A stretch of 64,000 nt of DNA, taken from positions 81,972 to 145,971 of the IMG/VR virus record IMGVR_UViG_3300020437_000003; one strand, given 5' to 3'. Source of the DNA: a virus. The notes below the pieces were generated by a model. The model searched no databases, was not told the DNA's origin, and saw only the letters and a program-made list of their open reading frames with translations. Below, in pieces: positions 15,976 through 46,831 of the stretch. The translations under genes were made by a program, and so were the position numbers. Positions within the stretch are counted from its first letter, which is position 1; each line of letters begins with the position of its first letter.

Positions 15976-17253
15976 ATGTCATTCTTTTTTAAAAGCAGCA
16001 ATGAAGAAGGCGCTAAAGATTTATATCAAAAAAGTCAAATTTACAATTTAGAAATTAGCGAAGACGAGTACAATAACCTGATTGATTTCGAGGTCGCAGA
16101 AAAATACCTGTACGGCCGTGTTAATTACTCATATGTTCCAATAGTCTATAATTCAAACGCCGTACCACTGGCTGGACTAAATAATACTAATACTAATAAC
16201 AACAATTTTGTTGCTGCACCTTATGTTGTCAAAGCGTTCAATGATTTAAATAATAAATTTTTAACCAAGACATTATCGGGAGAACTCAATACAAATGATC
16301 AATTTCTTGGTGTGCTGGAAGTTAAAAAAGCATATATCGATCCACGTGTGGTATACGATGCACATTTGACAAATATATTAAGCTTTTTGACCAATGCTAT
16401 GTCCGAGAGAAGTCGAAAATTTTCCAACATTCAAGAATTCATCCCCTTTTTCAATGATTCACTGCAGGCGATTTCTAAAGAAATACCAATTACCCTATCA
16501 GGATTTATAAAAAGTCGATTTTGCCCAGTTCATGTCAGTGGATTAGTAATTGAAATTGCAGATATTGATTATGCTAACGACGAAGAAAAAATTAGAAGTT
16601 TTAAGCAAAGCCCCAACTGGAAATTTTACCTAAATACTTGTAGATCATATGGTTTCCTTGTTGATTCTTCTAATCCATTTAGACTAATTGCAAACATTGG
16701 ATCTGATGAAATGATTGAATATGCAAAAAATGAACAAACGTGTGGCTTTAACAATACGGTCTCACTCTTATCAAACAATTATACCCCAGCATATCTCAAC
16801 TATCTTGAGTTTTATAAAAGATTTATTTATGATGCCTACAACCTGATGAAATTAGAGAGGTATCTAGAGAGAGAAATGTGCGCTGATGGCACAACCATCA
16901 CAAAAGAAATTGAAACCCTAAATTATAGTTTTAACGACTTTAAAAAAATCGTAAGCGACACTTATTGTTTAGAGAGCTATATTCAACTTAGGATCAATGA
17001 AGAGAACGCAGGCTTAGAGGATTATGAAATACTTAAATTAACAAAAGATACAATATCGCTCTCTGAGGTGAGAGGTGTGAATTTTGCCCTTAATCGTTTT
17101 GAAAAGATAGTGGGCCAAACATATAATTACAGTGGTTCCTTGACAGACTTATTTAATCGTGTTAAAATTAAAAACGAAGGTCTAGAGGAAACTTCAAGCG
17201 AAACTTTTGCTAGCGAAACTTCTACAACTAGTACTAATACATCGGGTTATTAA
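15976..17253 (+). CDS. Conserved phage structural protein of unknown function
   Basis: This 425-residue protein starts at ATG after GTGAGGA. It has aromatic- and Asn-rich segments and Cys residues at scattered positions. The stretch CRSYGFLVDSSNPFRLIANI (about 225-244) resembles a segment I associate with large hypothetical virion-region proteins of marine myoviruses. It ends with a Ser/Thr-rich tail. It follows the baseplate genes and shares its last base with the start of the polymerase gene. It is likely a baseplate or tail protein, by location only. Confidence 0.5.
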   Translation: MSFFFKSSNEEGAKDLYQKSQIYNLEISEDEYNNLIDFEVAEKYLYGRVNYSYVPIVYNSNAVPLAGLNNTNTNNNNFVAAPYVVKAFNDLNNKFLTKTLSGELNTNDQFLGVLEVKKAYIDPRVVYDAHLTNILSFLTNAMSERSRKFSNIQEFIPFFNDSLQAISKEIPITLSGFIKSRFCPVHVSGLVIEIADIDYANDEEKIRSFKQSPNWKFYLNTCRSYGFLVDSSNPFRLIANIGSDEMIEYAKNEQTCGFNNTVSLLSNNYTPAYLNYLEFYKRFIYDAYNLMKLERYLEREMCADGTTITKEIETLNYSFNDFKKIVSDTYCLESYIQLRINEENAGLEDYEILKLTKDTISLSEVRGVNFALNRFEKIVGQTYNYSGSLTDLFNRVKIKNEGLEETSSETFASETSTTSTNTSGY

Positions 17254-18446
17254 TGTATTTTCAAACACTTGACGACAAGTCTGAATGTGTCGGCATATAC
17301 AAAGATGGAAAACTACACTTTGATAATTTTCCTACAGACTTAAAAAGAACTTGGAGATACTCAGGTTCTATCAAAGATGATGACATTGAGTATGCGTGGC
17401 TTTATTGTCAAGGGAGAACACTAAGAGATGTATGTCCACCAGAATTTGAGAAAGAACTAAACTCAAGTATGAAAAAGATGGAGGCATTCTTTAAATCATT
17501 TCAGATAGCAAAGTTAGACATGACACAACATTGTATATTTGACTTAATACCTGAAGATTCATTGGCAAGTTTTTGTGAAATAAAAAACAAGATAACTGAA
17601 TATGTTTTCGCAATGAATGATAAGCCTGAAAACTACGATTTTTTGAATGATGCTCACAAATTGATTTACAATATTGGGGAACAAGAACTTAATATTGACA
17701 CTTTAGACTGCAAGAGCTTGTTTACTACAACCAACAACAGGCTTGGTTTGCAAAAGATTTTAAAAGGATCCAAATATATTGATTATAACTTGTTTGGCAC
17801 TGCCACAGGCCGCCTTACCACTTACCCTAGGTCTTTCCCCATACTAACGATGAAAAAGGATTTTAGGCGTATTATAAAGCCACATAACGACTGGTTCCTA
17901 TCCTTGGATTATAATGGTGCAGAAGTTAGAACTGTTCTATCGCTTCTTGGACAACCACAGCCGTCCGAAGATATTCACGCTTGGAATATGGCTAATATTT
18001 TTAGCTCGTCTGAGGTATCAATTAGTAGAGACGATGCAAAGGTGATGTTTTTTGGCTGGCTGTACAACCCAGAATCTGAGGTAATTCAGTCTGAGCTATA
18101 TGATAGAAACTCTATAATTGATCAATACTATGCTAACGGCAGTGTTAAAACGATATTTGGTAGAGAAATAGAGATTGACAGAAGAAGGGCGCTAAGTTAT
18201 ATTGTTCAAAGCACAACGTCTGATTTGGTGCTGGAGCGTGCTGTGGCAATATCAAAAATGCTAGACGACAAAAAGAGTTTTGTATCACACATTATTCACG
18301 ATGAGATTGTGATTGATTTAGCGGATGAGGACAAAAATATTGTCCCTGATATTAAGGCTGTATTTGCGAGTAATAAGCTTGACACATTTAAAGTTAACTT
18401 AAGCGCCGGAAAGAACTTTTATGATCTTGAGGAGCTTAAGTTATGA
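17253..18446 (+). CDS. Short family-A DNA polymerase, polymerase domain only
   Basis: The 397-residue product carries family-A polymerase motifs: GTATGRLTT (182-190); motif A, SLDYNGAEVR (217-226), in place of the usual DYSQIELR; a motif B-like KVMFFGWLYN (263-272); and motif C, HDE (349-351). The N-terminal 150 residues show no 3'-5' exonuclease motifs. It is much shorter than E. coli Pol I or T7 gp5. The Rhodothermus phage RM378 is a known case where polymerase and exonuclease are separate genes. The start codon overlaps the previous stop (TAATG). The catalytic Asp residues are present, so it may be active. With a DnaE-type polymerase also encoded, its role may be gap filling. Confidence 0.8.
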   Translation: MYFQTLDDKSECVGIYKDGKLHFDNFPTDLKRTWRYSGSIKDDDIEYAWLYCQGRTLRDVCPPEFEKELNSSMKKMEAFFKSFQIAKLDMTQHCIFDLIPEDSLASFCEIKNKITEYVFAMNDKPENYDFLNDAHKLIYNIGEQELNIDTLDCKSLFTTTNNRLGLQKILKGSKYIDYNLFGTATGRLTTYPRSFPILTMKKDFRRIIKPHNDWFLSLDYNGAEVRTVLSLLGQPQPSEDIHAWNMANIFSSSEVSISRDDAKVMFFGWLYNPESEVIQSELYDRNSIIDQYYANGSVKTIFGREIEIDRRRALSYIVQSTTSDLVLERAVAISKMLDDKKSFVSHIIHDEIVIDLADEDKNIVPDIKAVFASNKLDTFKVNLSAGKNFYDLEELKL

Positions 18447-19309
18447 TTTCAATTGTTGGAATTGGCAATGCCGCATCAGCCATTGCTACGAAATTTCAAA
18501 GCATCCCCCAGTATGATGTTTATTTGTTAAACGACAAGATTAAAAAAAATACCAAGCAAAAATATAAATTAAAATCATATGAAAAACCAGAAGATTATGA
18601 GAAGAACATACCAGATTTAACTAAATTTTTTAGTAATTGTCACGATCGTGTGCAAGTCTTTGTTACCGGTGCGTCTTTAAGTTCTATTTACAGTCTTGGG
18701 ATTCTTGAGCAGATTAAAGAAAAAGATATTGATGTCTTTTATATTAAACCTGATACCGAATTGTTAACCGGTATACCGCGTTTAGTTGAGAATATGGTAT
18801 TCGGTGTTCTACAAGAATACGCCCGCTCAGGTATGTTACGTAGTTTTACAATTTTCTCTAACGAGAGCATTGAAAAAATTCACTCCTCTATCAACTTAAA
18901 AACATACTATGATACGCTAAATGATACGATCTATTCTTCTGTTCATTATTTAAATTATTTTGAGCACACTGAGCCGCATATTGGGAACATGTCGAAGCCA
19001 AGCGAGATCAGTCGAATCCGCACAGTAGGAATGCTCGATATGAAAAAACTTTCTGAAATGTGGCTTTACGACCTTGACATGGAGCGAGAATTGTGCTATT
19101 ATATGTGTATAAATTCTGACCGACTTGAGGGGGAAGTGGGTCTACATAAAAAGCTTGTGGATATCTTGAAAAGTAAGCCAAGGAATGCTTTTCGCAAGAT
19201 TTCATATTCAATTTATGAAACAGAATTACCAGACTTTGGGTTTGTCGTGGCCCATACAAATGCGACACAATCAAACAAAAATACTCTTGACAAGCTAGAG
19301 CAAGAGTGA
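18443..19309 (+). CDS. Divergent FtsZ/tubulin-like protein
   Basis: The 288-residue product begins with a beta strand and a glycine turn (ISIVGIGNAASAIATKF, 2-18), as in FtsZ. At 72-82 VFVTGASLSSI stands where the tubulin signature GGGTGSG would be. Then comes a strand leading to KPDTELLTGIPRLVEN (102-117), like the KPF-FEG-R segment of FtsZ, then FTIFSNESIEKI (135-146), like the IPND-L-K segment, and SEISRIRTVGMLDM (187-200), like the FADVRTVM segment. The order and spacing fit the GTPase half of FtsZ, but the triglycine loop is lost. A degenerate or regulatory FtsZ relative is my inference. It overlaps the polymerase gene by four bases. Confidence 0.5.
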   Translation: MISIVGIGNAASAIATKFQSIPQYDVYLLNDKIKKNTKQKYKLKSYEKPEDYEKNIPDLTKFFSNCHDRVQVFVTGASLSSIYSLGILEQIKEKDIDVFYIKPDTELLTGIPRLVENMVFGVLQEYARSGMLRSFTIFSNESIEKIHSSINLKTYYDTLNDTIYSSVHYLNYFEHTEPHIGNMSKPSEISRIRTVGMLDMKKLSEMWLYDLDMERELCYYMCINSDRLEGEVGLHKKLVDILKSKPRNAFRKISYSIYETELPDFGFVVAHTNATQSNKNTLDKLEQE

Positions 19310-19366: not shown

Positions 19367-20140
19367 ATGTCAATCAATATGGAACTAATGCGAAAGAAAC
19401 TTGCCACATTGCGTGGTGAAGGGCAACGAGACGGCGATTCGCTGTTTTTTAAACCAGATGAGGGAGATACTGATATTCGTATCGTGCCAACAAGTGATGG
19501 TGATCCTCTAAAGGAGATGTTCTTTCATTATAATGTAGGCGAGCACAAGGGTGGTATTTTGTGTCCGAAGCGTAACTTTGGAGAACGCTGCCCTGTGTGT
19601 GATTTTGCCTCTGCAGTATGGAGGGATGGCACAGAAAATAATGATGAGGAAGCTAAGAAGCTTGCAAAGTCACTATTTGTTCGCGGCCGCTACTTCTCGC
19701 CAGTTGTTGTTCGAGGACGCGAGAGTGAAGGTATCAAGGTTTATGGTTATGGTAAGAAGGCTTACGAACTTCTCCTTGGCTACATTCTTGATCCAGAATA
19801 CGGAGATATCACCGATATTGGAGAAGGCACAGACATTACACTCACCTATACCAAGCCAACAGCCCCCGGAGCTTATCCGCAGACTAGCATGAAAATGCGG
19901 CGTAACACATCTTCACTTTTAGAAGATACAGAAGCGATCCCTGCCCTCCTCGATCGTATGCCGGATTTTTCTTCGCTCTTCGAGCGCAAAACCCCCGAAG
20001 AAATCGACGCGATTCTCGATGAACAATTAGTAAACCCATCATCTGCAGAATCTCTGTCCAGTGAGACTACAGCGTATGGAAAAGGTAGCTCCACTAGTGA
20101 TGTCGATCGAGCGTTTGATGAACTTATGAGCAATAAGTAA
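19367..20140 (+). CDS. Single-stranded DNA-binding protein, gp32-like
   Basis: This protein coats single-stranded DNA during replication and recombination. The 257-residue product has a basic N-terminus (MELMRKKLATLRG), needed in gp32 for cooperative binding, and a core with a zinc site formed by HK-GGILCPK and CPVC (about residues 55-77). It ends in an acidic tail (SDVDRAFDELMSNK) of the kind that contacts partner proteins. It starts behind AGGAGAA. UvsX follows, as expected for functional partners, and both probably share the promoter at 19287. Confidence 0.93.
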   Translation: MSINMELMRKKLATLRGEGQRDGDSLFFKPDEGDTDIRIVPTSDGDPLKEMFFHYNVGEHKGGILCPKRNFGERCPVCDFASAVWRDGTENNDEEAKKLAKSLFVRGRYFSPVVVRGRESEGIKVYGYGKKAYELLLGYILDPEYGDITDIGEGTDITLTYTKPTAPGAYPQTSMKMRRNTSSLLEDTEAIPALLDRMPDFSSLFERKTPEEIDAILDEQLVNPSSAESLSSETTAYGKGSSTSDVDRAFDELMSNK

Positions 20141-20210: not shown

Positions 20211-21353
20211 ATGGCAAAAGCCACAAAAGCAGGTCGTGTAGATATGCAAGATTTGATGAAGATTGTTAATAAAAAAGCAGGACAGAATGTAGCACACAAT
20301 CTGACGGGTGATAACCCAACTGCTGTAAAAGAGTGGATTCCAACTGGTTCACGATGGCTTGATTCTATCATTGCCAAAGGGCAAGTAGCTGGTATTCCAG
20401 TTGGCAAGATTACCGAGATTGCAGGATTGGAAGCAACTGGTAAGTCTTATATGGCAACGCAGATTGCTGCAAATGCCCAGAAAGCGGGCAAGATGGTCGT
20501 TTATTTTGATTCTGAGTCTGCTATCGATCCAATGTTTTTGGAGCGAGCAGGCTGCGATTTAGATCGCCTTATGTATGTGCAAGCTTCCTCCGTAGAGTTT
20601 GTGCTTGAGACTATCGAAGAACTATTGGGTGCAACCGACGAACAACTAGTGTTCATTTGGGATTCGTTGGCATTCACACCATCAATTTCAGATGTTGAGG
20701 GCGATTTCAATCCTCAATCATCAATGGCTGTCAAAGCCCGCATTCTCGCGAAGGGAATGTCAAAGCTTGTTATTCCGATTGCGGATAAACGAGCAACATT
20801 CATTGTCCTCAATCAGTTGAAGACAAATATTCCACAGGGTCCGATGGCCCGACAAATAGCAATGACAACACCTTATATCACCCCCGGTGGTAAGGCGATG
20901 CACTATGCTTATTCACTTCGTATTTGGTTGACTGGCCGAAAAGCTAAGTCAGCATTTATTGAAGATGAACGAGGGTTCCGTATCGGCTCCGAAGTTAAGG
21001 TGAAGCTTGAGAAGTCTCGTTTCGGCACTCAAGGTCGCTCTTGTGCTTTCCGTATCATGTGGGGCACTGACGATGTTGGGATCCGAGATGAGGAGTCTTG
21101 GTTTGATGCAATCAAAGGTTCGGAACACCTAACTTCCGCAGGTGCGTGGTATACATTCGCCACTCCTGACGGATATACAAAAAAGTTTCAACCATCCAAG
21201 TGGACCAGTATCATTACTTCCGATCAGGAGTTTAGGAATCGTGTCCTCAAAGTAATGGATGAAGAGATCGTGCAGAAGTTCGATCAGCGGCAAGGGAACG
21301 CAAAAGAGTTTTACGAAGATCCAGAAGATATATCAGTTCCTGTAAAAGAGTAA
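20211..21353 (+). CDS. uvsX: UvsX/RecA-type recombinase
   Basis: This ATP-dependent strand-exchange protein acts in recombination-driven replication and repair. I choose the ATG at 20211 (MAKATKAGR) because AAAGGAG lies eight bases upstream; the frame extends further but without a site. The 380-residue product has Walker A GLEATGKS, the YFDSESAID segment after it, a Walker B-like LVFIWDSLAF, and the NQLKTNI and GGKAMHYA segments of the RecA core. Length matches T4 UvsX (about 391). Confidence 0.93.
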   Translation: MAKATKAGRVDMQDLMKIVNKKAGQNVAHNLTGDNPTAVKEWIPTGSRWLDSIIAKGQVAGIPVGKITEIAGLEATGKSYMATQIAANAQKAGKMVVYFDSESAIDPMFLERAGCDLDRLMYVQASSVEFVLETIEELLGATDEQLVFIWDSLAFTPSISDVEGDFNPQSSMAVKARILAKGMSKLVIPIADKRATFIVLNQLKTNIPQGPMARQIAMTTPYITPGGKAMHYAYSLRIWLTGRKAKSAFIEDERGFRIGSEVKVKLEKSRFGTQGRSCAFRIMWGTDDVGIRDEESWFDAIKGSEHLTSAGAWYTFATPDGYTKKFQPSKWTSIITSDQEFRNRVLKVMDEEIVQKFDQRQGNAKEFYEDPEDISVPVKE

Positions 21354-21413: not shown

Positions 21414-21614
21414 ATGAAGAAGACACACCACCATATTTGTGGTGCTTGTGAAAAAGTGCCACTTGATTGGACACCGGATGAATTTCCTCAGCCCGGCGAA
21501 ATAGCTGAGAGGATATTGTCAAAAAATCCTGAGTGGGCTAAATTGCACCATATGATTTCAATGGCTATTTCAATGCGAGATAAATTATGGAGAGAATATT
21601 ATGACAACAGATAA
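21414..21614 (+). CDS. Small Cys/His-containing protein
   Basis: The ATG at 21414 directly follows the T run and uses GGAGG in the hairpin arm. The 66-residue product begins MKKTHHHICGACEKV; the HHH-CxxC group could bind a metal. The rest is helical with several Met. It is the first gene of the RNase H transcript and overlaps it by 14 bases. Function unknown. Confidence 0.7.
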   Translation: MKKTHHHICGACEKVPLDWTPDEFPQPGEIAERILSKNPEWAKLHHMISMAISMRDKLWREYYDNR

Positions 21615-22572
21615 GAAAAGAGTCATCATTATTGATGCCCTCAATATGTTTCTGAGGGCTTACATTGTGGACCCGTCGCTATCAACCAATGGTGATCCTA
21701 TCGGCGGTATTAAGGGCTCGTTTAAGATTCTTCAGAAACTTGTGAGAATGACAAAGCCAGACTCAGTTGTGATTGTCTGGGACGGTCCAAATGGATCTAG
21801 AAAACGTCGCAGTATGGACAAAAATTATAAGGCCGGCCGTAAGCCACTCCGCCTTAACCGTTCTGTTAATAATCTAACTGACGATCAGATAACAGAAAAT
21901 AAGATTTGGCAACAGAGTAGGACAATTGACTACATTAACCAGATGCCTATTGTTCAGATCATGATTCCAGAGGTAGAGGCCGACGATGTTATTGCGTATG
22001 TGACTAAAATGAGTCATTACGATGGATGGCAAAAAGTTATTATTTCCAATGACAAAGATTTCCTTCAGCTTTGCGATGAGGATACAATTCTTTATCGACC
22101 CACTGTTGATGAAGTAATGAATACCAAGCGTGTTATTGAAACCTTTGGCGTACACCCCACTAATATGGCCTTGGCACGCTCAATTGTTGGTGATGCATCC
22201 GATAATCTACCGGGTATCAAAGGTGCTGGCATTACATCAGTAAAGAAAAGATTGTCATTCTTAGCATCTGAAAAAGATTATACGATTGATGATGTAATAT
22301 TATTCTGTGAAAATGCAGATAGTAAACTAAAATTCTTCACAAATATTATTGACGGCCGTCAAGTGATCGAACATAATTACAAAATGATGCAACTGTATTC
22401 TCCACAACTCTCGATTCAGTCTAAGACGTTTATTGACAATGCAATTGAGAACTTTGAATGTAATTTCAACCAGTTAGAAATCTATCGGAAAATGATGGAA
22501 GATGGTTTCGGTGAACTTAACTGGGAAGACTTAAAAACTAATATGAATCGAATCAAAATTGATTGTTTCTAA
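21601..22572 (+). CDS. rnh: RNase H / 5'-3' exonuclease (FLAP family)
   Basis: This nuclease removes RNA primers and flaps from lagging strands. The 323-residue product has the N-terminal metal-binding strand VIIIDALNMFLRA, VVIVWDGPNGSRKRR (about 56-70), EVEADDVIAYV (about 123-133), the SNDKDFLQL segment and VGDASDNLPGIKG (about 196-208), which is the helix-hairpin-helix region. All are characteristic of T4 RNase H and FEN-type nucleases. Length is close to T4 RNase H (305). It sits between recombinase and helicase genes. Confidence 0.92.
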   Translation: MTTDKKRVIIIDALNMFLRAYIVDPSLSTNGDPIGGIKGSFKILQKLVRMTKPDSVVIVWDGPNGSRKRRSMDKNYKAGRKPLRLNRSVNNLTDDQITENKIWQQSRTIDYINQMPIVQIMIPEVEADDVIAYVTKMSHYDGWQKVIISNDKDFLQLCDEDTILYRPTVDEVMNTKRVIETFGVHPTNMALARSIVGDASDNLPGIKGAGITSVKKRLSFLASEKDYTIDDVILFCENADSKLKFFTNIIDGRQVIEHNYKMMQLYSPQLSIQSKTFIDNAIENFECNFNQLEIYRKMMEDGFGELNWEDLKTNMNRIKIDCF

Positions 22573-22574
22573 GT

Positions 22575-22602
22575 TTGACTTTACACCGAATTGAGTTATA
22601 CT
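22575..22602 (+). promoter_or_regulatory. Sigma-70-like promoter for helicase and nucleotide-reductase genes
   Basis: TTGACT (22575-22580), 16 bp, TATACT (22597-22602), in the 51-base gap before the gp41-like gene. It could drive helicase, ribonucleotide reductase and the co-chaperonin downstream. Confidence 0.75.
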
Positions 22603-22623
22603 TATTAATCGACGGGAGCAACT

Positions 22624-24033
22624 TTGCAGAGTAAGCCTAATTTCGCAGACTATGGTAAATCGTTTCAAGAAAACCTAGTTCAACTGATTTACCAAGATCG
22701 ACCGTTTGCGGACCAGATTACGGAAGTCTTAGATCTTAACTTTCTAGATCTTGAATACCTGCGCGTGTTTTCAAGCAAAATCATCAACTACAGACAGCGT
22801 TATGGCTCGCATCCCTCATCAAATGCAATCGCCACCATTTTAAACACTGAGCTTGAAGATGAAGAAGAAATAGTAGTTCATCAAGTCAAAGAATACTTTA
22901 CGAGAATACTATCGAAAGATATTGATAATGACGCGGACTACGTTAAAGAAACATCGCTTGATTTTTGTAGGAAACAAAACTTAAAAGAAGCAATGATGAA
23001 ATCTGTAGGTCTACTGCAGACTTGCTCTTTTGATGAAATATCTAAAATCATTAATGACTCATTAATATTAGGTTCTGAAAACAATTTTGGTCATGACTAT
23101 CTGGCTGATTTTGAAGAACGATTTAAGCCTCGTTATCGAAAGCCAATAACAACCGGTTGGGACGATATTGATAAAATTTGTGGTGGTGGCTTGGGAATGC
23201 AAGAGTTGGGTGTCGTTGTCGCACCCACCGGTGCTGGAAAATCTATGGTTCTTGTTCACTTGGGAGCACAAGCAGTGCTTGAAGGCAAGACCGTCGTTCA
23301 TTACACCTTGGAACTGCAAGACACAGTTGTTGCCTCAAGATACGATAGTTGCATTACTGGTTATCCTCTTTCAAACCTTATGTCTTTTAAAGAAGAGATT
23401 TATGAATCTGTTAAAGACATTGAAGGTCGTCTAATCGTAAAAGAGTATCCTACAAAGTCAGCATCTACCAATTCAATACGTTCTCACTTGACTAAGCTTA
23501 AGAAGCGTGGAACTGTGCCGGGTATGATTATTGTGGATTATGCAGATCTGCTGAAGCCAGTTGTTGTGAGAAAAGAAAAACGAGCAGAGCTAGAATCAAT
23601 CTACGAAGAACTCAGAGCTTTGTCGTCTGAGTTTGAGTGTCCAATATGGACTGCCTCACAAACGAATCGTTCCGGTCTTAATGCTGAGGTGATCACAATG
23701 GAACAAATTTCCGAAGCATTTAATAAATGCTTTGTGGCGGACTTTATTATGTCCGTGTCCCGCACTGTTGAGGACAAACAAAATAATACTGGTAAGATTT
23801 TTATTGCAAAAAATCGTAATGGACCAGACGGAATGATATATAATATATTCATGGATACTTCTTGTGTTAAAATTAAGGTTCTACCAAAAAGTAACACGGT
23901 TATACCGACAAATCCATCAAGCCCGGTGCCGGCAGTAGCGACTAGTCCGGTCGCTTTGACACCAAAAGAACAGAGAGAAGTCTTACAAGACAAATATGCT
24001 AAATTCAGAAATATAAAAAGGAAAAACAAATAA
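22624..24033 (+). CDS. Replicative DNA helicase, gp41/DnaB-like
   Basis: This hexameric helicase unwinds DNA at the fork. The start is a TTG at 22624 after CGGGAG. The 469-residue product has an N-terminal helical domain (1-170), then the RecA-like core with Walker A APTGAGKS (about 201-208), YTLEL, Walker B-like GMIIVDYADLL (about 301-311), and TASQTNRSG, the sensor motif of DnaB-type helicases. The C-terminal 40 residues are Pro- and Lys-rich. No separate primase gene is recognised in the window. Confidence 0.93.
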   Translation: MQSKPNFADYGKSFQENLVQLIYQDRPFADQITEVLDLNFLDLEYLRVFSSKIINYRQRYGSHPSSNAIATILNTELEDEEEIVVHQVKEYFTRILSKDIDNDADYVKETSLDFCRKQNLKEAMMKSVGLLQTCSFDEISKIINDSLILGSENNFGHDYLADFEERFKPRYRKPITTGWDDIDKICGGGLGMQELGVVVAPTGAGKSMVLVHLGAQAVLEGKTVVHYTLELQDTVVASRYDSCITGYPLSNLMSFKEEIYESVKDIEGRLIVKEYPTKSASTNSIRSHLTKLKKRGTVPGMIIVDYADLLKPVVVRKEKRAELESIYEELRALSSEFECPIWTASQTNRSGLNAEVITMEQISEAFNKCFVADFIMSVSRTVEDKQNNTGKIFIAKNRNGPDGMIYNIFMDTSCVKIKVLPKSNTVIPTNPSSPVPAVATSPVALTPKEQREVLQDKYAKFRNIKRKNK

Positions 24034-29763: not shown

Positions 29764-32700
29764 ATGGCAGAGCGGGTTTACTCTAAAATTAAATTTGTAG
29801 GACTGCACGCGCACAGTGTGGCTGGTTCTATCTTTGATGCTATTGGATATCCACAGGATCATATGGATTTTGCATATGAGAACGGATGTGAAGCACTAGC
29901 ACTAACAGATCACGGTAATATGAACGGGCTAGCTTATCAGGTGTTGCATGCCAAGAAAATGCAAGAGGCCGGTAAAGAGTTCAAGCCGATTTTTGGTTGT
30001 GAAGCATATTTCACTCCCTCCATTACAGAGTGGCGCGATGCCTATGAGCAAGCTATGGCAGACAAGAAGCGCGCCCGTTCAATCAAGAAAGACGCTCAAT
30101 CTGGCGCTACCGTTGAGGACGAGGGCAATAGTAAACAAGTTCAAGATATTTTACGTCGCCGGCGTCACCTTGTCCTGCTAGCGCAGAATCAAACTGGGCT
30201 GAACAATCTATTTAAGTTGGTATCCGAATCATATCAACCGGAGAATTTTTACCGCTACCCACGTATTGACTATGCGCTATTGGAAAAGTACAATGAGGGC
30301 ATCATCGCTTCTTCTGCTTGTCTTGGCGGGGTGTATGCAGGTAACTACTGGGAAAATCGAGAGGAAGGCGATGAAGCCGTGCTTGAAGCTATGCGTGAAA
30401 CAACAGCACGTATGGTGGACATTTTCGGTGATCGCTGGTATGCCGAGATCCAGTGGAATAATATTAAAGAGCAACATGAATTGAACAAATATGTAATTCA
30501 AGTTGCCAAAGAGTTTGGCGTTGGACTGGTTTCTACAGCCGATAGCCATTACCCCAACCCTGACGCTTGGAAGGACCGTGAGCTTTACAAGCGTCTTGGT
30601 TGGCTTGGCAAAGGCACTCCATCTTGGGCTGAAGGCGAATCAGAGTTGCCAGATGGCGTCGAAGAGATTGGTTACGAGCTATACCCTAAGAATGGGGATC
30701 AGATGTGGGAGAGTTACAAGCAATACTCTAAGGAACAAGGTTTTGATTATGATGATGACTTGGTTTTGCAAAGTATTGAAGAAACGCACCGTATCGCCTT
30801 TGAGCGCATTGAAAAGTTTTTGCCGGATAATACCGTTCGTTTGCCTGAATTCGTCGTTCCAGCAGGGTTTACGGCCACGCAAGCACTTGTAAACTATGCG
30901 CTTGAGGGACTAAAAGACAAAGGACTTCATACAAACAAAGAATATACCGATCGTCTGCGTCAAGAACTCAACGTTATTGATGACCGAGGATTCTCAAAGT
31001 ATTTCTTAACAATGAAGTCCATTGTTGATGTGGCAACTGATATGATGCTCACAGGCCCCGGTCGAGGATCTGCTGCAGGTTCGTTAGTTGCATACGCTCT
31101 TAATATCACAACAGTTGACCCGATTAAACACGGACTGCTGTTCTCTCGGTTTTTGCGATCAGACGCAACAGACTATCCAGATATCGATTATGATGTGTCT
31201 GATAGTATGACCTTGAAGGAGAAGCTGGTCGAAATGTGGGGTGAGGACTGTGTTGCTCCCATTTCTAATTGGAATACTCTGCAACTCAAGTCACTGATCA
31301 AAGATATTTCAAAATTGTACAACATCGAATTTACAGAAGTTAATACTGTAACCTCTATTATGATTCGAGAGGCTACACCCGCCGCTAAGCAGAAACACGG
31401 CATTCGAGCCGGTGTTTATAGTCCCACGTGGGAAGAGGTGATTGAATTCTCGCCAACATTGCGTGCATACCTTGATAAGTATCCAGCGGTTAAAACACAC
31501 GTTGAAGGTCTGGTTGGTCAGGTTCGTTCTTGTTCTCGACATGCTGGCGGTGTGGTCATCGCAGAGGACCTTGATAAGAGTATGCCCTTAATTAATTCAG
31601 GCGGCGTCCGTCAGGCTCCGTGGGCTGAAGGTCAGAACGTCAGGCACCTCGAACCGATGGGATTTATTAAGTTCGACTTACTCGGTCTCTCTACGCTCAA
31701 GATGATGGAAGGTGCTATTTATCACATCCTCAAGCGTCATCACGGAGTTGAGGAGCCAACCTTCGCTCAAGTGCGCGAATATTACGAAAAGAACTTACAC
31801 CCTGATGTAATCGATTTGAATGATCAGAATGTGTATAAAAATATCTTTCATAAGGGTAAATGGGCAGGTATCTTCCAGTTCACAGAGCACGGAGCACAAC
31901 AGTTCTGTACTCGAGTGAAGCCAACCAACATCATTGATGTGTCAGCTATCACATCTATTTATCGTCCGGGTCCACTAGCTGCTAATGTACACGACGAATA
32001 TGTTGAGGCAAAGGAAAGCCCACACTATATCCAGTATCTAAATGAAGACGCTCGCGAAATCACTGAGGAAACTTTTGGCTTTCTAATCTTTCAAGAACAG
32101 ATTGCACTGCTTGCTCACAAGCTTGGCGGCTTAACACTTGATGAAGGTAATATGCTTCGTAAAGTGTTGACAAAGAAGGGTACGGGTAAAGGCTCAGTGA
32201 AGAATAAACTTCATAGTAAGTTTATTGATGGATGCGTATCCAAGAAGATCCCACGAGATGAAGCGCAAGCTCTTTGGGATAAGTTTGAATATTTCTCTGG
32301 ATACGGTTTCAATAAGTCTCACGCCGTAAGTTATTCAATTATCTCCTACCAGTGTGCTTGGCTATTCAACTACTACCCTGCTGAATGGATGGCAGCTTTC
32401 TTGGACAAAGAGCCAGAATCTCGTAAGGAAAAAGCAATCAACATTGCCAAGAAATATGGATTCGAGATTGCCGCCTTAGATATTAATAAATCTGGTACTG
32501 TCTGGGAGATTAGTGACGATGGTAAAACACTTATTCAACCATTGACATCGATTAAGGGCCTAGGTATGGCAGCCATCGAGCAAGTGTTGGAAAATAGACC
32601 ATTCATGAATGCCGAAGATCTTCTATTCCGCGAAGATATTTCGTATAGCAAACTCAATAAGAAAGCGCTCGATGCACTTTGCCGCGGCGGTGCACTAGAC

Positions 32701-33198
32701 AATATTGTAGATGATCGTTTTACGGGACGTAAACATTTCTGGTCTGCTTGTATTGTTGAGCGTCCTAAGAACTTGAAGAAATTTAGCGAGAACATTGATA
32801 TCTTTGCCCCCGAGGGTGACTTCTCTGAAGAGGAGATCATCCAGTTCAAAACCGAACTGATCGGTGTTTTCCCTATCAACCTCGTTATTTCTACAGAAAC
32901 TATTGAAAAGCTTAAGGAAAAGTACATTCCACCCATCTCTGAATTTGATGAAGAGTTGCAAATTTGTTGGTTTATCCCACGTAAGATTGTTGAGAAGAAA
33001 ACTAAGAATGGTAAACTTTATTGGATTATTGAGGCGATTGACTCAAACAATGAACTAACTAGAATTAGGTGCTGGGGAGTTAAGCCTGATAAAGATCAAG
33101 TTCATATCAACAGACCTTATATGAGCCGGCTTGACTACAATGAGCAGTGGGGATTTTCCACTCGTTCTATTCGGCACAATTTTAGATTGTTAGGATAA
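29764..33198 (+). CDS. dnaE: DNA polymerase III alpha subunit (DnaE-type, family C)
   Basis: This is probably the phage replicative polymerase. The 1144-residue product starts with a PHP domain with intact metal ligands (LHAH, 14-17, and TDHGN), often a proofreading or pyrophosphatase site. The polymerase core follows: GPGRGSAAGS, the catalytic Asp pair in PDIDYD (472-477), MGFIKFDLLGLSTLKMM with the third Asp, YRPGPL, and GYGFNKSHAVSYS. A helix-hairpin-helix region and an OB-like end follow. T4 uses a family-B enzyme instead. AGGAGG precedes the ATG. Confidence 0.95.
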   Translation: MAERVYSKIKFVGLHAHSVAGSIFDAIGYPQDHMDFAYENGCEALALTDHGNMNGLAYQVLHAKKMQEAGKEFKPIFGCEAYFTPSITEWRDAYEQAMADKKRARSIKKDAQSGATVEDEGNSKQVQDILRRRRHLVLLAQNQTGLNNLFKLVSESYQPENFYRYPRIDYALLEKYNEGIIASSACLGGVYAGNYWENREEGDEAVLEAMRETTARMVDIFGDRWYAEIQWNNIKEQHELNKYVIQVAKEFGVGLVSTADSHYPNPDAWKDRELYKRLGWLGKGTPSWAEGESELPDGVEEIGYELYPKNGDQMWESYKQYSKEQGFDYDDDLVLQSIEETHRIAFERIEKFLPDNTVRLPEFVVPAGFTATQALVNYALEGLKDKGLHTNKEYTDRLRQELNVIDDRGFSKYFLTMKSIVDVATDMMLTGPGRGSAAGSLVAYALNITTVDPIKHGLLFSRFLRSDATDYPDIDYDVSDSMTLKEKLVEMWGEDCVAPISNWNTLQLKSLIKDISKLYNIEFTEVNTVTSIMIREATPAAKQKHGIRAGVYSPTWEEVIEFSPTLRAYLDKYPAVKTHVEGLVGQVRSCSRHAGGVVIAEDLDKSMPLINSGGVRQAPWAEGQNVRHLEPMGFIKFDLLGLSTLKMMEGAIYHILKRHHGVEEPTFAQVREYYEKNLHPDVIDLNDQNVYKNIFHKGKWAGIFQFTEHGAQQFCTRVKPTNIIDVSAITSIYRPGPLAANVHDEYVEAKESPHYIQYLNEDAREITEETFGFLIFQEQIALLAHKLGGLTLDEGNMLRKVLTKKGTGKGSVKNKLHSKFIDGCVSKKIPRDEAQALWDKFEYFSGYGFNKSHAVSYSIISYQCAWLFNYYPAEWMAAFLDKEPESRKEKAINIAKKYGFEIAALDINKSGTVWEISDDGKTLIQPLTSIKGLGMAAIEQVLENRPFMNAEDLLFREDISYSKLNKKALDALCRGGALDNIVDDRFTGRKHFWSACIVERPKNLKKFSENIDIFAPEGDFSEEEIIQFKTELIGVFPINLVISTETIEKLKEKYIPPISEFDEELQICWFIPRKIVEKKTKNGKLYWIIEAIDSNNELTRIRCWGVKPDKDQVHINRPYMSRLDYNEQWGFSTRSIRHNFRLLG

Positions 33199-34562: not shown

Positions 34563-35549
34563 TTGATTACAGATATTGTTTTGGGCATACAGCACGGTGA
34601 TGAGGGTAAAGGAAAGGTAACTCATCATTTACTTAAGAATGGCGACTACACACATTGCATACGCTTTAACGGTGGGTGTAACGCGGGCCACACTATCTTT
34701 CACAACGATAAGAAATTTGTTACCCACCATATTCCAGCATCGGTATTCTTTGGGATCCCGGCGATCATTGGGCCCGGATGTGTGGTTAACATTGACAAGT
34801 TTCTTAAAGAGCTAAACTATCTAGCAGAAAACGGGATTGACATTGAGAACAATGTTAAGATTGCTAGAAACGCTCATATTATTACTAAAGAACACGTAAC
34901 CGAAGATTCTAAAGACTATAAGATTGGCACCACTAAGTCTGGTAATGGTCCTGCGTATAGAGATAAGTTTCACAGATCAGGTGTTCGTGCCGAGAACGTA
35001 CCGCTGCTAGCTCCTTTTATTGTGGATATGCAAGAAGAATTATACGGTGGTGAGGAATCAGTTATTCTAATGGAAGGGGCCCAAGGCTTTTGGCTTGATG
35101 TGGATTGGGGTGATTACCCATTTGTGACAAGTAGCAACTGTGGTGTTGGTGCAGCCATCAATAATGGGATTGATCCTCGATCAATTCGTAATGTGTGGGG
35201 TGTTGCAAAAGTTTACGAAACTTATGTTGGAATGAAAAAATTTCAGCCAGAAGACAAAATATTTGAGACTATTCAAAAAGCAGGTTCAGAATTTGGTGCA
35301 ACGACCGGCCGCGTTCGGCAATGTAACTGGCTTGACTTTGAGAAACTTACTAGAGCTATTCGTATGAATGGAGTAAACAAGCTGATCTTTAATAAAGTTG
35401 ATGTACTACGTGAAGTTAAAAGTTGGGGTATGAAAAATCCAGACGCTTTCTTTGCTGATGGTGAAGACGGCTTTATGAAATTTATCACCGACAATGCCCC
35501 AGAATGTGTAGATGAAATTTTCTTCTCTGCATCCCCAAAAACTATTTGA
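34563..35549 (+). CDS. purA: Adenylosuccinate synthetase (PurA-like, short form)
   Basis: This enzyme makes adenylosuccinate from IMP, aspartate and GTP. Start is the TTG at 34563 after AGGAGG. The 328-residue product has the GTP loop HGDEGKGK with the catalytic Asp13, NAGHT with His43, GTTKSGNGPAYRDK, MEGAQGFWLDVDWG, YPFVTSSN and GATTGRVRQ. It is about 100 residues shorter than E. coli PurA, similar to archaeal and phage PurZ forms. Typical PurZ, which makes a 2-aminoadenine precursor, has Ser at the Asp13 position; Asp here favours ordinary PurA, though a PurZ0-type activity is not excluded. Confidence 0.9.
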   Translation: MITDIVLGIQHGDEGKGKVTHHLLKNGDYTHCIRFNGGCNAGHTIFHNDKKFVTHHIPASVFFGIPAIIGPGCVVNIDKFLKELNYLAENGIDIENNVKIARNAHIITKEHVTEDSKDYKIGTTKSGNGPAYRDKFHRSGVRAENVPLLAPFIVDMQEELYGGEESVILMEGAQGFWLDVDWGDYPFVTSSNCGVGAAINNGIDPRSIRNVWGVAKVYETYVGMKKFQPEDKIFETIQKAGSEFGATTGRVRQCNWLDFEKLTRAIRMNGVNKLIFNKVDVLREVKSWGMKNPDAFFADGEDGFMKFITDNAPECVDEIFFSASPKTI

Positions 35550-39724: not shown

Positions 39725-40061
39725 AAAGATATTAGGCGGAGAAGTCAAGGAAGATGCTACCTGTGTGATTAAGTTTTATTCTAATGGTTGTCATTTGTGT
39801 CATAACTTGAAAGATTATTATGAAGATATATCGAATAATGATCAATTTTCTGACATCCATTTTTTTGCTTTTAATGTTGACAACTATCCCGACATTGAAA
39901 AGCAATTAAAGTTCAATGGCGTACCAACGATATCCCTAGTGAAAACTTATACAGAAGACGTAAGTCCTAAAGTTCGGATTTTAAAAGATCCAGATAAGCC
40001 CAATGAGCAAACTTGGTATCGCTCTAGGGATATAAAACAATTTATAACGGAGATGAAATGA
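39690..40061 (+). CDS. Thioredoxin/glutaredoxin-like protein
   Basis: The 123-residue product starts at GTG behind GGGAGG. A strand leads to FYSNGCHLCHNL with a CHLC redox pair, followed by FNVDNYPDIEKQLKFNGVPTI containing the cis-proline of the thioredoxin fold. It could reduce the phage class II ribonucleotide reductase through that enzyme's C-terminal Cys pair. That link is inferred. Confidence 0.8.
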   Translation: MSVTRLSTEGLKKILGGEVKEDATCVIKFYSNGCHLCHNLKDYYEDISNNDQFSDIHFFAFNVDNYPDIEKQLKFNGVPTISLVKTYTEDVSPKVRILKDPDKPNEQTWYRSRDIKQFITEMK

Positions 40062-41116
40062 TGCCACTTACAAATTCCAGAGAAATGTTATCATATGATG
40101 ATGTTCTTTTGGTACCACAATATTCTGATATTCGTAGCAGGTCCGAGGTCAGTACTACAACCGATCTAGGCAACGGCTTGGTCTTGAATCTGCCTGTTCT
40201 GGCCTCACCTATGGATACTATTTCTGAGACAGCTATGGCTGTCTCTCTGGGTCGTCTTGGCGGCGCCGCTATCATTCACAGGTATAACAGCGCCGAGAAT
40301 CAATGCCGTATGGTATCTATGGCCTGCGAGATTGCAAAGACAAAGTATAATATGTCTATTGACATTGGTGCAGCAGTCGGTATTTCAGGAGACTTCGTTG
40401 AAAGAGCGACAGCGCTAATTGATGCGGGTGCAACATTTTTATGTGTTGATGTTGCTCACGGCCACCATATTTTAATGAAGGAGGCTATTACAAAAATTCG
40501 ACAAGCGGCTGGCAGTAATGTTCATATCATGGCTGGTAATGTTGCTACACTAGAGGGGATCAACGATCTAGCAGATTGGGGTGCTGACTCTATTCGTTGC
40601 AACATTGGTGGTGGTTCTATTTGTTCGACTAGGGTACAGACGGGCCATGGTGTCCCGGGCCTGCAAACCATCTTAGATTGCTCGCAAACCGACCGAAATG
40701 TGACAATTATCGCTGATGGTGGAATTAGAAACTCTGGTGATATTGTAAAAGCTTTCGCCTGTGGCGCTGACGCGGTTATGTGCGGCTCTCTTTTGGCAGG
40801 AACAGATGAAAGTCCCGGTAAGATTCAGGAAGACTTGAATGGCTCTAGATGGAAAACTTATCGAGGTATGGCCTCAAAAGAGGCACAAGTTAGCTGGCGA
40901 GGTAATTATTCTTCATTTGAGGGTGTTTCTGCAAGGGTTCCATATAGAGGATCGGTTGTCAAGATTCTTCAAGACTTAGAACGTGGTATTCGTTCTGGCT
41001 TCTCATACAGTGGTGCTAGAACGCTCACAGAGTTTCAGTCAGTAGCAGAACTAATCAAGCAGACGCCGGCCGGAATGGGCGAGAGCAGAACGCATATATT
41101 AGGGAGAAAGTGGTGA
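40058..41116 (+). CDS. IMP dehydrogenase / GMP reductase family enzyme, no CBS domains
   Basis: The 352-residue barrel protein has LSYDDVLLVPQYS, ASPMDTISE, IIADGGIRNSGD and GGGSICSTR (about 187-195) with the catalytic Cys, then YRGMAS and VPYRGSV. The regulatory CBS pair of bacterial GuaB is absent. The ASPMDT and VLLVP segments favour IMP dehydrogenase, while length and an early SRSEV segment also fit GMP reductase. It would act at the IMP branch point of purine synthesis together with the phage PurA. It overlaps the thioredoxin-like gene by four bases. Confidence 0.88.
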   Translation: MMPLTNSREMLSYDDVLLVPQYSDIRSRSEVSTTTDLGNGLVLNLPVLASPMDTISETAMAVSLGRLGGAAIIHRYNSAENQCRMVSMACEIAKTKYNMSIDIGAAVGISGDFVERATALIDAGATFLCVDVAHGHHILMKEAITKIRQAAGSNVHIMAGNVATLEGINDLADWGADSIRCNIGGGSICSTRVQTGHGVPGLQTILDCSQTDRNVTIIADGGIRNSGDIVKAFACGADAVMCGSLLAGTDESPGKIQEDLNGSRWKTYRGMASKEAQVSWRGNYSSFEGVSARVPYRGSVVKILQDLERGIRSGFSYSGARTLTEFQSVAELIKQTPAGMGESRTHILGRKW

Positions 41117-45244: not shown

Positions 45245-46831
45245 ATGAGTCGAGCATATGACGACAATCAATCATTACAACAAAAGATTATAACAGGAGC
45301 CAATGTTCTAGCAGACAACGTTGCCTCTACACTCGGCCCTCGCGGCCGAAATGTTCTGCTACAAGAAAAAGGCAAGAATCCATTTATTACCAAGGACGGT
45401 GTTACTGTTGCCGCGTTTGTTTCTCTTGATGATCCATTTGAAAACGCTGGTGCTCAAATCATTCGACAAGCAGCTATTGAAACTAACAACGGTGCTGGAG
45501 ATGGCACCACTACATCAACCGTGTTGGCTCGCTCTATTTTAACAGAAGCACAGAAATTTATTGCGTCTGGGGTTTCACCAATTGAGCTACAACGCGGCAT
45601 TGAGGCCTCTGTTAAACAAGTTGTCTTAAATCTGAAAGATATGGCGATACCGATTAATAGTCTTGAAGATGTTGAGCACATTGCCACTATATCGGCCAAC
45701 AATGATGCGTCCATTGGAAAACTCATTGCAATGGCTTTTGACCGGGTTGGCCATGATGGCTCAATTACAATTGAGGAATCAAATTCTATTGACACCTCCC
45801 TCGATATCACAGAGGGCTTTAGTTTTAATTCTGGGTATTGTGCCTCTGCTTTTGTTACAGATGATCGCAGGGCTGTAATGCATCACGATGATCCTATGAT
45901 ATTGGTAACCGATTATCGAATTACTTCGGTTGATCAAATCCTGCCTGTGCTTGAGACTGCAGCGCGCGAAGGTCGCCCATTGATTATTGTTTCTGAAGAC
46001 ATTGAAGGCCAAGCATTAGCAGCGTTAATTATGAATGCTATGCGAGGTACGATGAAGGTAGCTGCCATCAAAGCCCCCGGATACGGAGAGGAGCGTAGAA
46101 ACACATTGTCTGATTTGGCATTATCTGTAGGTGCAACATTTGTATCAAAGGAGAGCGGCAAGAAATTGCAAGATACCAAGATGATTGATTTTGGGACTTC
46201 TAAATTTGTTGAGTCAAGTAAAAATAGTACTATCTTTGTTGGTGGCAATGCCAATGTTGAAGTTATCGAAAGTAAAATTGACTCGTTAAAAGCAATTATG
46301 GAAGATACCGACTCTCTTGACGCTTGCAGAATGATACAAAATAGAATTACACGACTTGCATCCGGCGTAGCTGTCATCCGTGTTGGTGGAGCAACAGAAG
46401 TTGAAATGACCGAGAAAAAGCACAGGATTGAGGATGCACTAGAGGCTGTAAAAGCCGCACAAGATGAGGGTGTAGTGCCCGGTGGCGGGACAGCGTTATT
46501 ACGTGCTTGTCAAAAGATGGTTATTGCCACTGAAGATGGCCACCATGAGCAGATTAATGGCGCTGTCATTGTTAAGAATGCCTGTTATGCACCCATTAGA
46601 CAGATGGCTGAAAACGCTGGCTTGTCTCCTGACATTATTGTACAAGAAGTTTTGGATTCTGATACTAATATGGGCTGGAACTTTAGGAGTAACCAACTAA
46701 CAGATTTAACAAGTGATGGTGTCATTGATCCCGTGAAGGTTACACGTACTGCCCTGCAAAATGCCGCTAGTTGCGCCGGAACACTGATAACAACAAACTA
46801 CGGAATTGTTCAAACTGGGGCCGATGTATGA
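45245..46831 (+). CDS. groEL: GroEL-type chaperonin
   Basis: This ATP-driven folding chamber subunit is 528 residues, against 548 in E. coli. It has ASTLGPRGRNVLLQ (near 27-40), the ATP-binding GDGTTTSTV, the apical YGEERR, and the ATPase Asp in the segment EDALEAVKAA before EGVVPGGGTALL. The C-terminal Gly-Gly-Met repeat of bacterial GroEL is absent. Phage-encoded GroEL is uncommon. With the phage GroES-like protein it could replace or modify the host system for capsid folding. It has its own strong promoter. Confidence 0.96.
   Translation: MSRAYDDNQSLQQKIITGANVLADNVASTLGPRGRNVLLQEKGKNPFITKDGVTVAAFVSLDDPFENAGAQIIRQAAIETNNGAGDGTTTSTVLARSILTEAQKFIASGVSPIELQRGIEASVKQVVLNLKDMAIPINSLEDVEHIATISANNDASIGKLIAMAFDRVGHDGSITIEESNSIDTSLDITEGFSFNSGYCASAFVTDDRRAVMHHDDPMILVTDYRITSVDQILPVLETAAREGRPLIIVSEDIEGQALAALIMNAMRGTMKVAAIKAPGYGEERRNTLSDLALSVGATFVSKESGKKLQDTKMIDFGTSKFVESSKNSTIFVGGNANVEVIESKIDSLKAIMEDTDSLDACRMIQNRITRLASGVAVIRVGGATEVEMTEKKHRIEDALEAVKAAQDEGVVPGGGTALLRACQKMVIATEDGHHEQINGAVIVKNACYAPIRQMAENAGLSPDIIVQEVLDSDTNMGWNFRSNQLTDLTSDGVIDPVKVTRTALQNAASCAGTLITTNYGIVQTGADV

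Follow-up and report, generated by a model that had tools for sequence, protein, structure and literature searches.

A predicted pseudo-GTPase tubulin encoded in the replication operon of uncultured marine phages that also carry an intact tubulin

What does a protein with the segment order of FtsZ, but without the FtsZ signature GGGTGSG, do in the replication region of a phage? The question was raised by an open reading frame in a 64,000-nucleotide stretch (the window), taken from a virus record of 145,971 bases (G000). A sequence-only reading of the window had proposed a divergent FtsZ/tubulin-like protein, encoded between a polymerase and gp32 in a T4-like phage and possibly blocking host division by poisoning FtsZ. 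ORF calling returned the frame as described (18443-19309, ATG start, + strand, 288 residues). The gene of this protein, designated P0001, is indeed flanked by a polymerase gene (17253-18446) and a gp32-like gene (19367-20140), in the following order.

17253..18446, + strand: short DNA polymerase of the PolA family, 397 aa (phrog_17, 1.5e-17)
18443..19309, + strand: P0001, predicted pseudo-GTPase protein of the tubulin/FtsZ fold, 288 aa (ORF call, AlphaFold2, Foldseek and VIA-align)
19367..20140, + strand: gp32-like single-stranded DNA-binding protein (phrog_1192, 4.5e-25)
20211..21353, + strand: UvsX/RecA-like recombinase (phrog_97, 2.5e-61)
21601..24033, + strand: 5'-3' exonuclease and DnaB-type helicase of the same operon (phrog_107 and phrog_19)

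A class II ribonucleotide reductase comes after the exonuclease and helicase genes. The description of the phage as T4-like holds in part: the sheath, UvsX and gp32 speak for it, and the encoded DnaE-type polymerase III alpha subunit and class II ribonucleotide reductase speak against it. The DnaE-type subunit (29764-33198) is encoded alongside T4-like structural and recombination genes, the PolA-like enzyme at 17253 being an additional polymerase. The interval between the baseplate genes and polA contains a 425-aa ORF (15976-17253) without PHROG or isolate-phage match, which is syntenic, yet only 34% identical, between distant members. Elsewhere in the window, an adenylosuccinate synthetase-like gene (34563-35549; PurA models up to 272 bits and PurZ 112 bits, all below cut-off) may be a base-modification or purine gene. 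An IMP dehydrogenase/GMP reductase-like protein is encoded at 40058-41116 (TIGR01302, 277 bits, below cut-off), and a phage-encoded GroEL at 45245-46831 scored over the cut-off of several GroEL subfamily models.

The start codon of P0001 overlaps the stop codon of the upstream polA-like gene by 4 nucleotides (ATGA) in 112 of 113 distinct loci. This arrangement points to translational coupling and to production of P0001 alongside the replication proteins. Relatives of P0001 were detected in at least 516 IMG/VR stretches in one scan, and a second query extended to a branch at about 49-54% identity. The dN/dS ratio was 0.04-0.07 (about 0.05) for pairs with measurable dS; purifying selection was found both for P0001 and for P0002, the second tubulin of the record described below. 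With orthologues down to about 49% identity in so many stretches and such low dN/dS ratios, P0001 is no chance ORF. Two copies contained apparent in-frame stops, and no gene was called broken on such ground. A bacterial origin of P0001 and P0002 was also considered: degenerate-peptide patterns, which distant relatives can escape, detected no relative of either protein in 84,980 species genomes.

Sequence profiles did not place P0001 in the tubulin/FtsZ superfamily. Pfam returned a sub-threshold match to GARS_N only (0.17), NCBIfam returned no match, and PDB sequence searches gave chance matches only (a uteroglobin fusion and cysteine synthase). Profile-profile similarity by hhalign was not significant (p 0.011 against FtsZ and p 0.054 against P0002), partly because the alignment of P0001 is shallow (Neff about 2), and the T6-H7 segment was the sole stretch aligned with FtsZ. 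PHROGs gave a 24-residue match to phrog_8956 (0.013).

The predicted structure was informative. AlphaFold2, run on an input of 28 family sequences that were 61-88% identical to the query and included no FtsZ, produced a model with a pLDDT of 86.4 and a pTM of 0.86. The first 50 Foldseek matches of this model in the PDB were all FtsZ, TubZ or CetZ, and FtsZ was among the highest-ranked; the best E was 6.6e-12 at a probability of 1.00, TM normalised by query length ranged from 0.43 to 0.69, and identity was 8-14%. VIA-align gave Z scores of 23.5 for CetZ (3zid_B, 255 residues), 22.0 for TubZ (4ei7_A) and about 21 for β-tubulin; 255-269 residues were aligned over the range 1-281 of the model, and Z was at least 8 for 719 of 719 aligned PDB chains. 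In a viral structure library, the best match (E 2.1e-12) bore the name FtsZ and came from an uncultured Caudovirales phage. Prediction by AlphaFold2 followed by Foldseek, the check that the sequence-only reading had suggested, thus bore out the tubulin/FtsZ fold at the level of the model (E 6.6e-12, Z 21-23.5). Since the match extends over residues 1-281 and includes the C-terminal domain, the fold assignment covers the whole protein beyond its GTPase half, and a two-domain tubulin/FtsZ fold over the full length of P0001 is supported by the model. It is highly improbable that P0001 is no tubulin and that this nucleotide-binding protein of Rossmann type would be similar to no more than the GTPase half. 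Its N-terminal GxG motif, the sub-threshold GARS_N match and some weak matches to Rossmann folds among the viral structures would fit, but the last of these cover only part of the model with TMq about 0.3. The Rossmann reading was rejected on coverage and TM, as tubulins span residues 1-281, C-terminal domain included, at Z 21-23.5.

The predicted topology also placed the segments on which the FtsZ likeness had been based. MISIVGIGNAAS corresponds to strand S1 and loop T1, GASLSS to the T4 loop between S4 and H4, KPDTELL to the S5/T5 turn, FSNESIEKI to S6/T6/H6, and RTVGMLDM to S7. The elements of the putative nucleotide site are as follows, column counts being taken over 52 family representatives.

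18458..18481, + strand: T1 loop equivalent, residues 6-13, GIGNAASA (model topology, column counts)
18668..18691, + strand: T4 phosphate loop, degenerate, residues 76-83, where GASLSSIY replaces GGGTGSG (modelled between S4 and H4)
18746..18763, + strand: T5 region, residues 102-107, KPDTEL, with P103, D104 and L107 invariant (topology, column counts)
18860..18862, + strand: Asn140 in T6, at the guanine-contact position of FtsZ N165 and β-tubulin N206, in 52/52 representatives (hhalign, column count)
18908..18922, + strand: Tyr156 and Asn160 of H7, aligned with the base-stacking and base-contact residues F182/N186 of FtsZ and Y224/N228 of tubulin (hhalign)
18968..19015, + strand: T7/H8 equivalent, residues 176-191, without NxDxxD/E (DSSP of the model, motif count)

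The phosphate-binding and catalytic elements are degraded. As had been noticed from the sequence, GGGTGSG is missing; GGGTG[ST]G occurs in 0 of 166 family members, and the family has instead the pattern G76-[SA]-S-x-S-[SA]-x-Y (G76 in 52/52, S80 in 49/52 and Y83 in 48/52 representatives). The GxG of T1 is kept, and the Asn of the canonical T1 is found at position 13 in 8 of the 52 representatives only; it is present in a divergent member, L195, whose T1 reads GIGDAGCN. The T7 motif N.D..[DE] was likewise found in none of the 166 members, and helix H8 is reduced to a 3-residue turn in the model according to DSSP. The positions that contact the base are retained. Asn165, Phe182 and Asn186 of E. 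coli FtsZ, like Asn206, Tyr224 and Asn228 of tubulin, have guanine-contact roles. Position 156 is Tyr in 39, Phe in 12 and His in 1 of the P0001 representatives (Tyr or Phe in 51/52), and Asn160 occurs in all 52. The assignment of N140, Y156 and N160 relies on the P0001-FtsZ alignment with p 0.011, which covers exactly the T6-H7 stretch. Compared with a GTPase of the PF00091 type, P0001 lacks the GGGTG(S/T)G of T4, the NxDxxD/E of T7 and, in the model, helix H8, and has the guanine-contact residues at the aligned positions (N140, Y/F156 and N160). With a degenerate T4, no T7 acids and no H8, we read P0001 as a pseudo-GTPase tubulin that has probably lost GTP hydrolysis. Binding of a guanine nucleotide, or of a similar ligand, may persist through the putative Asn/Tyr/Asn pocket.

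Only one match in a PF00091 search of the 145,971-base record exceeded the curated cut-off; it lies about 41 kb upstream of P0001.

G000:C1:59170-60306 (L421:7171-8307), outside the window, same strand as P0001: P0002, intact FtsZ-like tubulin, 378 aa (PF00091)

The PF00091 score of P0002 was 35.3 bits in the search of the record and 33.5 bits for the ORF, and its core matched FtsZ by hhalign with 97.5% probability (E 5.6e-12). The GTPase motifs are intact (T1 GVGGGGN, T4 GGGGGTGSS and T7 SFDSKDLE), and the base triad N222/Y239/N243 is N/Y/N, as in P0001. Among the P0002 matches, GGGTGS of T4 was found in 215/215 and FDSxDLE of T7 in 213/215, counts that include repeat contigs and represent 86 distinct sequences. 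The alignment was too shallow for AlphaFold2, and the resulting model (pLDDT 47) was not used. Neither protein belonged to the PhuZ family phrog_4733, which P0001 did not match and P0002 matched with an E of 0.084 only. Between two distant members, P0002 was the most conserved protein compared (88% identity), followed by the terminase (78%), the portal, UvsX and NrdJ (74%), gp32 and DnaB (72%), PolA (53%) and P0001 (50%). P0002 also carries a nearly invariant acidic N-terminal tail of 60 residues (NEFDFLPPAEPPPSFNQEKD...), 88-99% identical across 80 loci; a conserved and probably disordered tail suggests a candidate binding site. As a separate observation, six ORFs near the P0002 gene (starting at L421: 2692, 6818, 8619, 9568, 10137 and 12620) share an N-terminal tag like MKITKxxLKQIIKEEL, similar to the capsid-targeting leaders of T4 type that have an I-x-E cleavage site. 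L422 contains two further ORFs of this kind, and a reversed-sequence control contained none.

Both genes were sought in 31 further virus records and in the record of the window. P0001 and P0002 were both present in 10 of the 10 contigs able to show both (G000, G001, G002, G003, G005, G012, G014, G015, G018 and G024), on one strand and 39-43 kb apart, the distance being measured across contig ends in G005 and apparently also in G024. As both genes are nearly identical between G000 and G001, these two contigs amount to almost one case. In the contigs with a single gene, the expected position of the partner lies past the contig end, G025 being a borderline fragment. Judged by sheath and PolA alike, one of the nearest isolates is Flavobacterium phage immuto, whose operon follows the same order (PolA, two small ORFs, SSB, RecA, exonuclease and DnaB). 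The products of the two small ORFs in the P0001 slot, gp002 and gp003, did not match the P0001 family, and immuto gave no PF00091 match whatsoever. In Microcystis phage Mel-JY01, also among the nearest isolates, neither P0001 nor P0002 was found. Within the sensitivity of the profiles, which bounds the absence of a diverged P0001 from immuto and Mel-JY01, the pattern fits a joint gain of the pair.

In our preferred reading, to which we give somewhat less than an even chance, P0001 is a non-hydrolysing partner of P0002, tied to phage DNA replication. As a cap, nucleator or adaptor, P0001 would bind P0002 filaments at one of their ends. Co-produced with the PolA-like and single-stranded DNA-binding proteins, it would link the P0002 filament to the phage replication centre, and replicating phage DNA would thereby be positioned or segregated in the host cell. 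We infer the P0001-P0002 contact and the DNA-positioning role, the latter by analogy with PhuZ. Without T7 and H8, P0001 is unlikely to polymerise at two ends in the ordinary way, and a role at one specific end fits more naturally. The partnership is favoured by the predicted fold with its lost catalytic parts and retained base pocket, by the intact tubulin in the same genome, by the joint presence of both genes in 10 of 10 contigs and the lack of both in immuto and Mel-JY01, by the coupling to polA, by purifying selection on both genes and by the high conservation of P0002. Several observations weigh against it. The two genes lie in different operons, and the profile similarity of P0001 to P0002 and FtsZ is not significant. 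P0001 evolves much faster than P0002 (50% versus 88% identity), a difference that hardly points to an obligate stoichiometric heterodimer. Co-occurrence within one phage clade represents about one evolutionary event and leaves the interaction unproven, as shared descent alone could account for it. The broader proposal of a two-component phage tubulin cytoskeleton, in which hydrolysing P0002 would be capped, nucleated or anchored to the replisome by the pseudo-GTPase P0001, is tentative, and we hold it to be possible rather than probable.

The tubulin fold of P0001 could instead have been reused as a replisome scaffold or guanine-nucleotide sensor acting with the PolA-like polymerase and gp32, in the absence of any filament role. 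This is rather unlikely, although the 4-nucleotide overlap with polA in 112/113 loci argues for it, as does the similar extent to which PolA (53%) and P0001 (50%) have diverged in distant members. It is also in keeping with the absence of T7 and H8 from P0001, since in phiKZ TubZ the filament contact is made with T7, S9 and the base of H8 (PMC3678025). However, a role confined to replication leaves unexplained the intact tubulin P0002 in exactly these phages, as well as immuto, which has the same operon and neither tubulin.

Interference with host division, as suggested by the sequence-only reading, would require P0001 to mimic an FtsZ subunit and to cap or poison host FtsZ filaments, so that division stops during infection. 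An FtsZ fold without the GTPase parts would suit a dominant-negative subunit. FtsZ-binding phage proteins such as T7 Gp0.4 are small and unrelated. Their existence in other phages nevertheless offers a precedent (T7 Gp0.4, PMC13423816). We regard a host-FtsZ poison as unlikely, and as less likely than a partner of P0002, because P0001 belongs to the core replication operon, is co-translated with polA (112/113 loci), is universal rather than patchy in the phage group, never missing where expected, and is under strong purifying selection. In addition, the intact tubulin of the phage itself, P0002, is a closer candidate partner than host FtsZ, and P0001 had no bacterial relative in the species genomes searched with degenerate-peptide patterns. 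Finally, P0001 might assemble without hydrolysis into homopolymeric filaments, independently of P0002. A tubulin fold with conserved top-face loops and H10/S9/S10 region would be compatible with such assembly, which the absence of T7 and H8 and the degenerate T4 render improbable.

Comparison with known systems places P0001 close to FtsZ in structure and far from it in sequence. FtsZ, to which the top Foldseek matches belonged (TMq mainly 0.59-0.69, lowest E 6.6e-12), shares the topology from S1 to H7, the C-terminal domain and the Asn/aromatic/Asn base pocket. P0001 differs by its 8-14% identity, by the lack of GGGTG(S/T)G, T7 NxDxxD and H8/H9, and by the lack of a long C-terminal linker and peptide; it is somewhat shorter than the FtsZ core. 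CetZ gave the top structural Z score (23.5, 3zid_B, 255 residues), but CetZs are intact archaeal GTPases, whereas P0001 has lost the T4 and T7 elements. Archaeal FtsZ paralogues without function-important motifs are on record (PMC2875224). α/β-Tubulin and BtubA/BtubB offer the parallel of two tubulin paralogues per genome, with the activating T7 on one subunit only in α/β-tubulin (PMC3232192). Both members of these pairs bind GTP and form heterodimers, in contrast to P0001, which lacks the phosphate and catalytic machinery and is encoded in a separate operon from P0002.

Among phages, two kinds of tubulins have been described, TubZ and PhuZ (PMC7950403; also PMC7824862). In the open-access literature, both are active GTPases, PhuZ being found in large nucleus-forming phages and TubZ in plasmid-like prophages. 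PhuZ of the phiKZ/201phi2-1 group, like P0001 a phage-encoded member of the tubulin superfamily, positions phage DNA at mid-cell (PMC4244570, PMC7950403). Its GTPase site is competent (PMC3678025), and the phages from which it was described measure 186-316 kb (PMC7950403). P0001, in contrast, has no GTPase motifs, and the phage in whose T4-like replication operon it is encoded measures about 190 kb. TubZ of Bacillus plasmids and phage c-st shares the tubulin fold (Z 22.0, 4ei7_A) and an origin in mobile elements; it is an active GTPase with TubR/tubS partners, none of which were noticed adjoining P0001. The only isolate-phage relative of P0002 that we found was gp138 of Bacillus phage G (24.6%, 7e-4), which has a canonical-looking T4 loop and comes from a giant phage, whereas P0001 had no relative among 50,697 phage records. 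The latter result, together with a literature limited to PhuZ and TubZ, agrees with the statement of the sequence-only reading that tubulins are not known in T4-like phages. In the open-access literature, we found no report of the P0001 family, of a phage pseudo-GTPase tubulin, or of a phage with two proteins of the tubulin fold. If they work as a two-component system, P0001 and P0002 would be the first paired tubulin-fold phage system that we could find.

The P0001 family escapes sequence profiles, and similar pseudo-tubulins may therefore hide among phage proteins that have no assigned function. If the two-component proposal is true, phage tubulins would extend beyond giant nucleus-forming phages and plasmid-like prophages, and viruses, too, would have divided the tubulin fold between a hydrolysing and a non-hydrolysing partner. 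P0001 and P0002 provide a testable case of tubulin filament capping or coupling to DNA replication, and of a filament role in phages other than the nucleus-forming ones. The phage group that carries P0001 is widespread, marine and uncultured, and phages smaller than the known giants may run a two-part tubulin system.
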